Shown: piece after piece, positions 267 through 50,224 of the stretch | Layout: the number at the start of each line of letters is the position of its first letter | Position numbering within the stretch: the stretch's first letter is position 1 | Virus record (IMG/VR): IMGVR_UViG_3300013100_000003 | Span: 1 to 50,224 of that record | Length of the DNA: 50,224 bases | DNA from: a virus | Strand: one strand, 5' to 3' | Notes under the pieces: generated by a model | Databases searched by the model: none | The model's input: the letters and a program-made list of their open reading frames with translations, nothing else | Told to the model about the DNA's origin: nothing | Position numbers and translations under genes: made by a program

Positions 267-313
267 ATAGCACTTTTTGCTAAAGACTCCCGGCAACCAT
301 TCCGCTATCATTC
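267..313 (+). promoter_or_regulatory. Marbox-type promoter P1
   Basis: The 20-bp box at 267-286 matches AYnGCACnnWnnRYYAAAYn at 13 of 14 specified positions. After 19 bp comes TATCAT (306-311) followed by TC. There is no TTGACA-like -35, so the box sits where an activator would replace it (class II layout). It lies between a terminator and the gene starting at 358. This is the only copy with 19 rather than 18 bp of spacing. Confidence 0.8.
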
Positions 314-1762: not shown

Positions 1763-1808
1763 ATAGCACTTTTTGTTAAAACTGGCTCCATTGATTCCGC
1801 TATTATTC
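1763..1808 (+). promoter_or_regulatory. Marbox-type promoter P2
   Basis: The box at 1763-1782 matches the marbox consensus at 13 of 14 positions. An 18-bp gap leads to TATTAT (1801-1806) then TC. It abuts the upstream stop codon and drives the gene at 1852. It has no inverted repeat in the gap, unlike five of the other copies. Confidence 0.8.
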
Positions 1809-2088: not shown

Positions 2089-2134
2089 AAGGCACAAAAA
2101 GCTAAACATCAACCAAATCATTCCGCTATTATTC
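2089..2134 (+). promoter_or_regulatory. Marbox-type promoter P3
   Basis: The box at 2089-2108 matches 13 of 14 marbox positions (GCAC, W, GCT, AAAC) though its central T-run is replaced by AAAAA. An 18-bp gap leads to TATTAT (2127-2132) then TC. It drives the transcript with the DNA-binding pair and possibly the lysis genes. The leader at 2140-2166 can fold into a GC-rich hairpin. Confidence 0.75.
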
Positions 2135-6914: not shown

Positions 6915-6991
6915 AGGCTCGTAGTTTAGGCGGTTAAAATACTCCCCTGTCACGGGAGAGATCACGGGTTCAAACCCCGTCGGGCCTGCCA
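6915..6991 (+). tRNA. tRNA-Asp (GTC)
   Basis: A complete cloverleaf of 77 nt: acceptor AGGCTCG / CGGGCCT (one G-T pair), anticodon stem CTCCC/GGGAG around CTGTCAC with anticodon GTC, T-arm ACGGG-TTCAAAC-CCCGT, discriminator G and encoded CCA. It decodes GAC/GAT. Confidence 0.95.
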
Positions 6992-7181
6992 AAGTGGGCA
7001 TTAGATGAAAGCGGGTTTCCTCCCGGATTTATCGCAATCATCACTGCCGCTGTCAACAGCGTATGACGTTAAACCGCTCGCCAATGAATGCAAACGGGAA
7101 AGGGCGTTAAATCTACGTTAGGCCGATGAGTTCAACTGGCAATAAAGAACTGACAGCCGGGAAAGTCCGGCCACGAATTAA
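6992..7181. other. Spacer between tRNA genes with small hairpins
   Basis: No gene. It has small hairpins such as CGCTG-TCAA-CAGCG near 7052-7065 and CGGG-TTTCCT-CCCG near 7012. It may be part of the tRNA precursor. Confidence 0.5.
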
Positions 7182-7270
7182 GGCGGGTTGTCAGAGCGGC
7201 TTATTGAAGTTGACTGCTAATCAACCGGGGCGCAAGTCCCGCAGAGGTTCGAATCCTCTACCCGCCGCCA
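7182..7270 (+). tRNA. tRNA-Ser (GCT)
   Basis: 89 nt. Acceptor GGCGGGT/ACCCGCC is perfect. The anticodon loop contains GCT. A long class II variable arm (GGGGCGCAAGTCCC) is present, then T-arm AGAGG-TTCGAAT-CCTCT, discriminator G and encoded CCA. It decodes AGC/AGT. Confidence 0.95.
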
Positions 7271-36867: not shown

Positions 36868-37145
36868 GAGAAAGAAAATATAGCGTCGAAGATAATCGCA
36901 CTGATATACCAAAGTACAGACTGAAAACGATTCCCAGCCAGGATAAGCGGATGGGTAAATCAATGTCTGAATGGTATTTCATCCACCTCAAGCAGTTGCC
37001 GCTGTGGGAAACCATGCTGATCAATCACCCTCAGACCTACAAGCAGGCGCTGGCGCTGGTGAACTACGCTGGGGGCAACCTGCAGCGCACTTTCAGGACG
37101 CACAATCACAAGGATGGAACTATTGCAGTATGGAGGGTTGAATAG
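36864..37145 (+). CDS. Small basic protein, unknown
   Basis: 93 aa, Lys/Arg-rich at the start, with a helical centre and NLQRTFRTHNHKDGTIAVWRVE at the end. Start overlaps the primase stop. Its TAG stop (37143-37145) is part of the P4 marbox. Function unknown; a primase partner is possible from the overlap. Confidence 0.75.
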   Translation: MRERKYSVEDNRTDIPKYRLKTIPSQDKRMGKSMSEWYFIHLKQLPLWETMLINHPQTYKQALALVNYAGGNLQRTFRTHNHKDGTIAVWRVE

Positions 37146-37187
37146 CACGAATTGCAAAACAATCGGTTAATGATGCCGATATTATTC
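37142..37187 (+). promoter_or_regulatory. Marbox-type promoter P4
   Basis: Box 37142-37161 matches 13 of 14 marbox positions; 18 bp later TATTAT (37180-37185) then TC. The gap holds a small inverted repeat ATCGG/CCGAT. The box includes the stop codon of the upstream gene. Leader CATCGAAAC is shared with P5 and P7. Confidence 0.82.
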
Positions 37188-37223
37188 ATCCATCGAAACG
37201 AAATGAGGCATGGAAATAAAATT

Positions 37224-38893: not shown

Positions 38894-39460
38894 ATGAAAA
38901 TCATCGTTCCAGTTAAAACCCTCAAAGCACACAATATCATTCGCGGCACTCGCGAGACTAACCTGGCCCTGAACGGGATCTTTATCACCAAAGATCAGAT
39001 AATCAGCAGTGATGGCCGCCTGTTGCTGGTTAGCGAGAATAAGCTCAATCCTCGTCAGCGTGCCGATTACCTGGTGAAGATCGAACACATCCCTGCAGGC
39101 TCATCAATGGCGGTGATCGATACTGACCTGCAGCTGTGTTACTTCCTGGATCGCGTCGTCAGCCATTCAACGCTTGATGACATTAACCTGACGGAGCAGT
39201 ACAAAGGCGTGTCTGGCGCTCGCATCATGCGCTACGACTACCCGGACGTTAGACCAATTATGCAGATGGTTGGTGGATCAATTTCCAGCGTGAAACTGAG
39301 TGCTCATGTTCTGGGTAAAATCACCGCGCTCACCAAAGCCATCGGGTCACGCACTGGCGAGGTGGAATTGCATTTCCAGAAGGACAAGACGCAGACGATT
39401 AACGCGCTTATCCGCCAGGGTGCGACTGTATTAAACCTTTTCCTTAAACCAATGAAGTGA
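38894..39460 (+). CDS. Sliding-clamp-like protein
   Basis: 188 aa. GIFITKDQIISSDGRLLLVSE and DYPDVRPIMQ resemble the second strand and the YPDYR segment of beta-clamp (DnaN) domains, but the protein holds only about one and a half clamp domains. It could be a small processivity factor, or a mimic that competes with the host clamp. I see no polymerase to pair with. Assignment is from motif similarity only. Confidence 0.6.
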   Translation: MKIIVPVKTLKAHNIIRGTRETNLALNGIFITKDQIISSDGRLLLVSENKLNPRQRADYLVKIEHIPAGSSMAVIDTDLQLCYFLDRVVSHSTLDDINLTEQYKGVSGARIMRYDYPDVRPIMQMVGGSISSVKLSAHVLGKITALTKAIGSRTGEVELHFQKDKTQTINALIRQGATVLNLFLKPMK

Positions 39461-40491: not shown

Positions 40492-40537
40492 ATAGCACTA
40501 ATTGCTAAATATAGCGGGTTAATTCCCGCTATTATTC
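40492..40537 (+). promoter_or_regulatory. Marbox-type promoter P5
   Basis: Box 40492-40511 matches all 14 specified marbox positions. 18 bp later TATTAT (40530-40535) then TC. The gap carries inverted repeat TAGCGGG - TTAATT - CCCGCTA. Drives the cluster at 40567-42817, which includes the AraC-type gene. Confidence 0.88.
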
Positions 40538-40566
40538 ATTCCATCGAAACAGAGTGAGAGAAAGCA

Positions 40567-42189: not shown

Positions 42190-42420
42190 ATGGGCCGTCA
42201 CCACAATCGCGGCTGGCGTGCCGTACCCGAACAAAACATCGTTCGCCTCTACAACCGATTTGATGGAGAGCGGTTCAGAGGTTGCGTGAAGGTTGACGGC
42301 ATTATCATCAGTTGTGGCATTCATCCAACCCGCAGCCGGGCAGTCATGGCACGCAGGTTGGCAATTCATTGGATTAAGTCGGGTTATGGCCTGGCTAGGG
42401 ATTATGGGTATGAACGTTGA
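42190..42420 (+). CDS. Small basic protein upstream of the AraC-like gene
   Basis: 76 aa, Arg/His-rich, with FDGERFRGCVKVDGIIISCGIHP in the middle and an AVMARRLAIHWI helix. It resembles the N-terminal DNA-binding part of AP2-like phage proteins but without clear conservation. Its last 11 bp overlap the AraC-type gene, implying coupled synthesis. Confidence 0.68.
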   Translation: MGRHHNRGWRAVPEQNIVRLYNRFDGERFRGCVKVDGIIISCGIHPTRSRAVMARRLAIHWIKSGYGLARDYGYER

Positions 42421-42817
42421 GATAAACGCAATCTGCAGGATCATGGAGGTTGCTACGGTTGAGGGTAAGCGCTTTGAGGTCGGTGATATTGAGCGCGTGA
42501 TCGGCTGGGATTACGAGCAGTGGGGTAAGCAGTTCCGGGAGCAGACCGGACAGACCCCAGCCAGATATGCTCGCCTCTTTCGTTTGCGCCTCATCTGCAA
42601 GGACTTGCGCGAGACGGGAGCGACGGTAGGCGATGTATTTACCGGGCACGGCATGGACGTAGCGCATATGCAGCGCCAGTTTAAAAAGGCTATGGGGATG
42701 ACTCCTTACATGTTCAGGAAATCATCCCAGGAAGTAGCGGAGCGGCGTATATCGAGGGTTTTCGGTGATACGCAATTCCAGCACGATCTATCAACTTCAC
42801 CTCCCACACTCAAATAG
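42410..42817 (+). CDS. Single-domain AraC/MarA-type activator
   Basis: 135 aa from ATG 42410; a longer frame from 42293 would lie inside the neighbour. HTH1 (IERVIGWDYEQWGKQFREQTG) and HTH2 (VGDVFTGHGMDVAHMQRQFKKAMGMTPYMFR) match the AraC DNA-binding domain. No sensor domain, so size and layout equal MarA/SoxS (about 100-130 aa). The stop TAG (42815-42817) lies inside marbox P6. Its likely targets are the eight marbox promoters. Rare in phages. Confidence 0.9.
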   Translation: MNVEINAICRIMEVATVEGKRFEVGDIERVIGWDYEQWGKQFREQTGQTPARYARLFRLRLICKDLRETGATVGDVFTGHGMDVAHMQRQFKKAMGMTPYMFRKSSQEVAERRISRVFGDTQFQHDLSTSPPTLK

Positions 42818-42859
42818 CACTTTTTGCACAACATGCCGGGATCATTCCCGGTATTATTC
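42814..42859 (+). promoter_or_regulatory. Marbox-type promoter P6
   Basis: Box 42814-42833 matches 12 of 14 positions; 18 bp later TATTAT (42852-42857) then TC. Gap inverted repeat CCGGG / CCCGG. Overlaps the end of the AraC-type gene, giving a direct link between the presumed activator and its sites. Confidence 0.8.
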
Positions 42860-43237: not shown

Positions 43238-43423
43238 GTGGAAAAATTCATGATTGAAAAGGGGACTCGCATTATTACGCGGGTTTCAGAGAATGGCGAT
43301 TGCCACTGGTACAGGCGCAGCATCTCTCAGTGGGTTAAATGCGAAATGACCACTGCAGAGATCGTGGAGAATACCGTAGCCACCGGAAATGGATATTGGG
43401 TTGATAATCCAGAGGGCAGGTAG
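43238..43423 (+). CDS. Small protein, unknown
   Basis: 61 aa from GTG 43238 behind GTGGGG; ATG 43250 is an alternative. Contains WYRRSISQWVKCEM and an aromatic end. Its TAG stop (43421-43423) is the TAG of the P7 box. No family. Confidence 0.6.
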   Translation: MEKFMIEKGTRIITRVSENGDCHWYRRSISQWVKCEMTTAEIVENTVATGNGYWVDNPEGR

Positions 43424-43465
43424 CACTTTTTGCAAAACGGCGGGTATAGATTCCCGCTATCATTC
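43420..43465 (+). promoter_or_regulatory. Marbox-type promoter P7
   Basis: Box 43420-43439 matches 12 of 14 positions; 18 bp later TATCAT (43458-43463) then TC. Gap inverted repeat GCGGG/CCCGC. Includes the upstream stop codon. Confidence 0.8.
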
Positions 43466-43496
43466 TTCCATCGAAACTAAACGAGGTTACACCGAA

Positions 43497-46325: not shown

Positions 46326-47036
46326 ATGAACATGGTAGAAAAAGACGCGATTTACAATCAGCTTTTCACTTTCGATAAGCCAACCAGCCAGCTGATCGAC
46401 AACTTCAGCGGTTGTGCTGTCACGTCGAAATATGCAGAGGTAAAGCGAGTTGGTTACACGTCTGTTGATGACATTAAGGCCGGGATCATCCGGCACAAAA
46501 ACCGAGAGATTAAAGCAGCCCAAAAACAACCAGTGACCAGTCGCGAGAAGCGAAGAGAATTGCGTGAGGCTCGCCAGGAGCAACTGACCGAGAAGCAGAA
46601 GGCGGCACTCAAGCGCAAAGAGAAGCGCCAGCAGGAGATCGAGTTCTTTGACAGGATAGACCGAAGTTCAATTGACTATCAACGCAAGATCAATGATGCG
46701 CTGTCTATTGGTGATATGAAACTTGTCGGAGCCATGATCCACCTGTCAGAGAAAAAGCGCAGGCCAATTGCTTACGCTGAGGGTTATGGATACTTCTCTA
46801 CTGACGACGGAATTCACTGGCACCAAATTCGGGTTCACTACCGTTTCATTAAACATCGCGCCCCGGCTCACAGGAACAGCAGGGGTGAAGCCATGATCCT
46901 GATCAATAAGAATCTTGAGCCAACTAAAAATAAACGGCTGGGAGGTAATCGCGCCAGCATTAGCGGCTGGACTCAAGAGGAATTTGAGGCTGCTACTAGT
47001 TTCATCAAGCAGCGCCGGGAAAGCACGAATAGCTAA
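46326..47036 (+). CDS. Unknown protein with coiled-coil centre
   Basis: 236 aa; ATG 46326 or 46332. Basic helical centre (about 55-105; SREKRRELREARQEQLTEKQ) and a C-terminal beta part with AYAEGYGYFSTDDG. Preceded by the A-tract region, which may hold its promoter. Large for this cluster. No family recognised. Confidence 0.75.
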   Translation: MNMVEKDAIYNQLFTFDKPTSQLIDNFSGCAVTSKYAEVKRVGYTSVDDIKAGIIRHKNREIKAAQKQPVTSREKRRELREARQEQLTEKQKAALKRKEKRQQEIEFFDRIDRSSIDYQRKINDALSIGDMKLVGAMIHLSEKKRRPIAYAEGYGYFSTDDGIHWHQIRVHYRFIKHRAPAHRNSRGEAMILINKNLEPTKNKRLGGNRASISGWTQEEFEAATSFIKQRRESTNS

Positions 47037-47099
47037 AGCGTATTATCGGGAGAGCCTGTATATTTGGCTCTACACCAACCACCCACTAAGGGGATCATC

Positions 47100-48452: not shown

Positions 48453-48671
48453 ATGAAATCACGTTACTTTCACTACGTCGCAACACTGACGATGGACGAT
48501 CACGGAGAGAAGTATTCAGGGCGAACCAGCGGCATCATTGAGCGCTCAGATCCAGGTGTGACGCCAGCGGAGGTCTTTAAGCACATTCAGCTTGTTACCT
48601 GTCAGAGCCTGGGCGTGATGACCAGCAATGCTGATCTGGTTGTCGTCGAGCTGATCAATCCTATCGAATAG
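48453..48671 (+). CDS. Small beta protein, unknown
   Basis: 72 aa: YVATLTMDDHGEKYSGRTSG and VVVELINPIE as strands around a helix. Its TAG stop (48669-48671) belongs to the P8 box. Unrecognised. Confidence 0.7.
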   Translation: MKSRYFHYVATLTMDDHGEKYSGRTSGIIERSDPGVTPAEVFKHIQLVTCQSLGVMTSNADLVVVELINPIE

Positions 48672-48713
48672 CACTTTTTGCAAAACATAGCGGGGTAGCT
48701 CCCGCTATTATTC
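48668..48713 (+). promoter_or_regulatory. Marbox-type promoter P8
   Basis: Box 48668-48687 matches 13 of 14 positions; 18 bp later TATTAT (48706-48711) then TC. Gap inverted repeat ATAGCGGG/CCCGCTAT. Drives the final cluster, which runs through the join to 230. Confidence 0.84.
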
Positions 48714-50099: not shown

Positions 50100-50224
50100 T
50101 AAAATGAAGGTTCGGCAGGTGCCAGCCACAACGCTTAAGCCAGGCGATATCTTCTTTGACATTAGCGGAGAGATGGCGAAAATCGTCTTTCGCGCTAACA
50201 CCTCAGCGCCTGGTAAGGTGGGCT
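50089..50224 (+). CDS. 5' part of the KPGD protein cut by the join
   Basis: ATG 50089 overlaps the previous stop TGA (50097-50099). The reading frame continues at base 1 of the window and ends at 230. It gives the true start of the gene listed at 3. Confidence 0.85.
   Translation, partial: MASDKMKVRQVPATTLKPGDIFFDISGEMAKIVFRANTSAPGKVG
50102..50224. repeat. Right copy of the terminal direct repeat
   Basis: Identical to 1-123; see that entry. Confidence 0.97.

Follow-up and report, generated by a model that had tools for sequence, protein, structure and literature searches.

The 50,224-base window analysed here is a single IMG/VR virus record (IMGVR_UViG_3300013100_000003) whose plus strand carries a family of repeated boxes, recognized by repeat analysis of the window, together with an araC gene encoding a phage AraC/XylS-type protein. 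From the comparisons below, we consider it quite probable that these boxes are early-gene promoters of the class II marbox type, read by the host. More widely, a large set of enterobacterial phages of several families, T1 included, would appear to put their early transcription under host MarA, SoxS, Rob or RamA, such that the antibiotic-stress state of the host would set the speed at which infection starts, with the Dibbivirus group contributing an AraC-type gene of its own to the targets of the network; this broader reading we regard as likely, if held a little less firmly. In the mechanism we propose, one of the host's MarA/SoxS/Rob/RamA-group activators would bind the marbox, which is in forward orientation (GCAC...GCTAAA) with its centre near -40, and, once bound, would replace the missing -35 element by touching sigma region 4 and the C-terminal domain of the alpha subunit (alpha-CTD), upon which host sigma70 RNA polymerase would start the phage early operons, phage araC being one of the genes switched on via marbox promoters.

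Boxes were scored over 15 positions against the published marbox GCAHWWWWTGYYAAA, derived by chromatin immunoprecipitation (PMC6900184), a site being accepted when at least 13 of the 15 positions matched GCAHWWWWTGYYAAA and a -10 hexamer lay 34-36 nt after the box start. Nine sites in the window pass this rule (box starts 270, 1766, 2092, 37145, 40495, 42817, 43423, 47023 and 48671), compared with a mean of 0.08 and a maximum of 2 in 100 dinucleotide shuffles of the window. They include all eight promoters (P1-P8) listed in a preliminary description of this DNA and a ninth box, at 47023, that may be missing from that list. All nine match at 13 to 15 positions, lie in the forward orientation, are centred near -40 and overlap the -35 position, as expected of class II sites, and the distance from box to -10 is 35 nt in seven of them and 36 nt in P1 and the site at 47023:

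267-311, plus strand: P1 marbox promoter GCACTTTTTGCTAAA, 15/15, -10 TATCAT at 36 nt from the box start.
1763-1806, plus strand: P2 marbox promoter GCACTTTTTGTTAAA, 15/15, TATTAT at 35 nt.
2089-2132, plus strand: P3 marbox promoter GCACAAAAAGCTAAA, 14/15, TATTAT at 35 nt.
37142-37185, plus strand: P4 marbox promoter GCACGAATTGCAAAA, 13/15, TATTAT at 35 nt; its TAG is the stop codon of the upstream open reading frame.
40492-40535, plus strand: P5 marbox promoter of the araC operon GCACTAATTGCTAAA, 15/15, TATTAT at 35 nt, with an 8-bp inverted repeat before the -10.
42814-42857, plus strand: P6 marbox promoter GCACTTTTTGCACAA, 13/15, overlapping the araC stop codon.
43420-43463, plus strand: P7 marbox promoter GCACTTTTTGCAAAA, 14/15, TATCAT at 35 nt.
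47020-47064, plus strand: ninth site GCACGAATAGCTAAA, 13/15, TATATT at 36 nt.
48668-48711, plus strand: P8 marbox promoter GCACTTTTTGCAAAA, 14/15, TATTAT at 35 nt.

The equivalents of the ninth site in the three Dibbivirus genomes DIBBI, AAM37 and PSKM, to which the window shows about 73% DNA identity over most of its length, have TATAAT at 35 nt.

Class II promoters of the mar/sox/rob regulon carry a forward marbox near -41 and no -35 element (PMC10268841). In E. coli MG1655, the GCAC of micF, which serves as structural model for promoters of this class, lies 35 nt upstream of the -10 TAGAAT, and the phage boxes share with this promoter the forward marbox, the 35-nt distance from GCAC to -10 and the lack of a -35 hexamer. 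Unlike micF, the phage boxes stand ahead of early operons, occur in 9-15 copies per genome at most, and often come with an inverted repeat at the -10. Further checks of the E. coli geometry returned a possible site at 34 nt in fumC and the expected reverse site in marR; scans of inaA and sodA recovered no convincing marbox.

The box is by no means confined to the window and its relatives. A 30-nt box query matched 1,095 GenBank phage records at 6,957 places, as against 56 records and 56 places for a scrambled box, and the exact 17-mer TAGCACTTTTTGCTAAA recurs in viral contigs among the matches listed. The hosts of the matching phages are overwhelmingly Klebsiella, Escherichia, Enterobacter, Citrobacter, Salmonella, Shigella and Cronobacter, and the phages include Drexlerviridae (Rtp, ADB-2, Jk06), the Slopekvirus KP15 and 41-kb phages such as IME_EC2 and Lumpael. 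Under one whole-genome rule (34-36 nt), T1, which was scanned separately from the box query, has 15 sites, the window 9, and DIBBI, AAM37 and PSKM 4 each; lambda and T7 have 0 sites in the same scan, and controls in which the -10 was moved or the box reversed gave 0 or 1. The T1 site at 39347 falls within the coding sequence of a gene and could be fortuitous; the number of T1 promoters is put at about 14. We note that these class II marbox promoters of T1 (NC_005833) precede most of its small-gene operons and are not annotated as promoters. Alternatively, the box could be an ordinary element of phage promoters that needs only RNA polymerase or is read by a phage protein common to many families; the frequent G at -14 (an extended -10), which makes some basal activity likely, would be in keeping with this. 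We nevertheless find this explanation very unlikely, as the element is common to Drexlerviridae (T1, Rtp), Slopekvirus KP15, Dibbivirus and the IME_EC2-type 41-kb phages, and the marbox match at class II distance would then be a coincidence.

In KP15, a feature annotated as "putative middle promoter; discovered using MEME" overlaps a 15/15 box; its annotators made no link to the marbox, and the KP15 paper names no factor. A MotA-type middle promoter, suggested by this label, was considered and rejected: the distance of approximately 20 nt that separates TTGCTAAA from the -10 does not fit a MotA box. A literature search, with most subscription journals outside its reach, returned no report of marbox-driven phage promoters. 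If the host-read interpretation is correct, it names a host factor for the early promoters that occur in repeated copies in many Klebsiella, E. coli and Enterobacter phages; altered levels of MarA, SoxS, Rob or RamA in the host should lead to different transcription of such phages.

The anatomy of the promoter was derived from 100 non-redundant phage promoters picked with a -10 at 34-36 nt, 73 of which have a spacing of exactly 35 nt; without the spacing constraint, the -10 lies mostly 19-21 nt past the end of the exact 17-mer. The logo of the 73 promoters reads GCAC, a W-rich stretch, TTG, C/T, T, AAA, no -35, G at -14, a TATAAT-like -10 and CA at the start site. A match to TTGACA is no better than 3 of 6 in 66 of the 73, so that across phages, too, a sigma70 -10 is present with no recognizable -35. 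Also conserved is a start region, ATCGAAAC(GAA), located downstream of the -10 of many box promoters where the transcript probably has its 5' end (in the window, for example, at 37191-37198, 40541-40548 and 43469-43476). The box itself is asymmetric: C follows GCA in 72 of the 73 promoters, the mirrored spacer position holds T, TGCT is followed by AAA, and the marbox Y alternates between C and T. This asymmetry fits binding by a MarA-type monomer rather than selection by a symmetric dimer. It bears directly on the idea that another host factor with similar half-sites, such as Lrp, reads the palindrome TAGCA-N5-TGCTA, the marbox match being incidental. The TAGCA/TGCTA symmetry is indeed seen in many boxes, and among 69 boxes chosen without regard to TA, 59 have it directly ahead of GCA. 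The Lrp operator is a palindromic 15-bp site; the half-sites of the box would be compatible with its consensus, and the spacer and flanks are asymmetric. Neither the asymmetric conservation nor the micF spacing is predicted by palindrome models, and we give this idea very little credence.

The other candidate reader is the phage's own AraC-type protein, which lies downstream of P5:

40567-42420, plus strand: small genes between P5 and araC (open reading frame list and sequence).
42410-42817, plus strand: phage AraC/XylS-type protein of 135 aa, DNA-binding domain only (ATG..TAG open reading frame, Pfam, structural model).

The preliminary description took this gene to encode a stand-alone AraC/MarA-like protein with two helix-turn-helix (HTH) units and no sensor domain, a description with which both Pfam (HTH_18 1e-11, HTH_AraC 3e-6, both exceeding the curated cut-offs) and an AlphaFold model agree. 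The model (predicted local distance difference test, pLDDT, 80; predicted template modelling score, pTM, 0.75), in which a long helix connects the two HTH units, was compared, as that description had proposed, with the MarA-DNA structure and superimposes on MarA (1bl0) with a template modelling (TM) score of 0.73 and a root-mean-square deviation of 1.8 A. The gene is real and its protein family already known: the protein has the C-terminal-type double HTH (HTH_18/HTH_AraC) of the AraC/XylS family, and three Dibbivirus orthologs (DIBBI_gp47, AAM37 gp49 and PSKM gp47; 38-40% identity), the only close relatives found, already carry the annotation "AraC family". Searches of viral contigs returned no relatives with the window protein alone as seed, and only AAM37 and PSKM with an alignment as seed. 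Like MarA, SoxS and RamA, the phage protein has a two-HTH fold of about 100 residues and no sensor domain; it differs from MarA in its low identity (19%), the loss of W42, the replacement of Q91/Q92 and a C-terminal extension of approximately 25 residues.

Also upheld was the placement of araC in a cluster driven by P5, a near-ideal marbox that matches GCAHWWWWTGYYAAA at all 15 positions and, over 40492-40510, AYNGCACNNWNNRYYAAAY perfectly. The last small gene and araC share 11 nt at the araC start, and translation of the two is likely coupled. The order of box, small genes, araC and box is kept in all four phages (the window, DIBBI, AAM37 and PSKM), and the presence of a box upstream of the araC operon in each of them makes regulation of araC by the host likely. 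From the position of araC behind P5, its stop codon within P6 and its MarA-like make-up, it had been proposed that host Rob or MarA may start P5 and that the phage protein then amplifies all of the boxes in an autogenous feed-forward circuit, a proposal for which the conserved arrangement and the MarA-like fold also speak. The first step, the start of P5 by host MarA, SoxS or Rob, is supported by the sequence. Amplification by the phage protein is not, and we consider it unlikely. W42, R46 and R96 (MarA numbering) are key DNA contacts (PMC8279559, PMC11633057) common to MarA, SoxS and Rob. At these positions, which mark the MarA/SoxS/Rob/RamA subgroup, the alignment shows E/K/R in the window protein and C/E/R in its orthologs; R96 is thus retained and R46 replaced by K in the former, which somewhat favours the proposal, but two of the three contacts are gone, the orthologs have E in place of R46, and helix 6 is preceded by a one-residue deletion. 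Both recognition helices carry different residues in the orthologs, which occupy the same genomic position, and the boxes remain unchanged, a disparity that speaks, short of proof, against the phage protein as the reader.

Among 37 records with boxes, a search for HTH_18 (PF12833) found the domain in the window, AAM37 and PSKM only; all 34 records from outside the Dibbivirus group lack it. HTH_AraC (PF00165) is absent from T1 and KP15, and identical boxes, GCAAAA variants included, are present in phages without AraC, T1 and KP15 among them. With boxes in hundreds of phages, the notion of the phage protein as their master is not supported, and host reading, if it applies, would correct the idea that the boxes require a phage AraC protein to be read. 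The araC stop codon (TAG, 42815-42817) does fall inside P6, as had been noted, and a P6 box also follows araC in all three Dibbiviruses; P4, P7 and P8, however, likewise provide the preceding gene with its TAG, so that the overlap is no sign of autoregulation by araC. The phage protein is a genuine AraC-type DNA-binding protein that most likely acts at sites other than the boxes. Inspected as a possible late-promoter target of the protein, the terminase promoter region yielded no AraC site in either the window or AAM37; it has a conserved TGTATTAT (an extended -10) after a terminator, with which no AraC site is needed there.

Several observations weigh against a host reader. Conservation exceeds the marbox, with AATA before GCAC and the near-symmetry of TAGCA and TGCTA, and may point to another reader. 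The DIBBI record states Xanthomonas vesicatoria as host, although its near relatives infect Pantoea. Xanthomonas is not known to have MarA, SoxS or Rob; should DIBBI indeed infect it, a reader encoded by the phage would be reasonable there. Finally, Rob is constitutive but normally sequestered (PMC11633057), leaving it uncertain which factor would be active in unstressed cells. On balance, we infer that a protein of the MarA/SoxS/Rob/RamA group acts at the boxes and that it does so as an activator.

A second feature of these promoters, an inverted repeat of variable sequence, is real and occurs far more often than expected by chance. It occupies one of two fixed places, centred either some 8 nt upstream of the -10 or on the -10 itself, and is found across unrelated phages; examples in the window include 40516-40535 and 42831-42852, and the -10-centred form recurs in T1. 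Stems of at least 6 bp are present in 38 of 100 promoters versus 5.9 in shuffles and, with one mismatch allowed, inverted repeats are present in 37 of 103 promoters versus 4.5. Mismatches within stems are G-T in seven cases and A-C in one, an excess that, in this small sample, hints at a role for the hairpin in RNA read through from upstream.

With respect to the genome as a whole, an exact terminal repeat of 123 bp (1-123 = 50102-50224) suggests that the map is probably complete, the window representing a complete or circularly permuted genome. A 288-bp stretch that includes tRNA-Ser (6983-7270) is 99.65% identical to DIBBI 1713-1999, as opposed to about 73% elsewhere, suggestive of a recently exchanged tRNA cassette.
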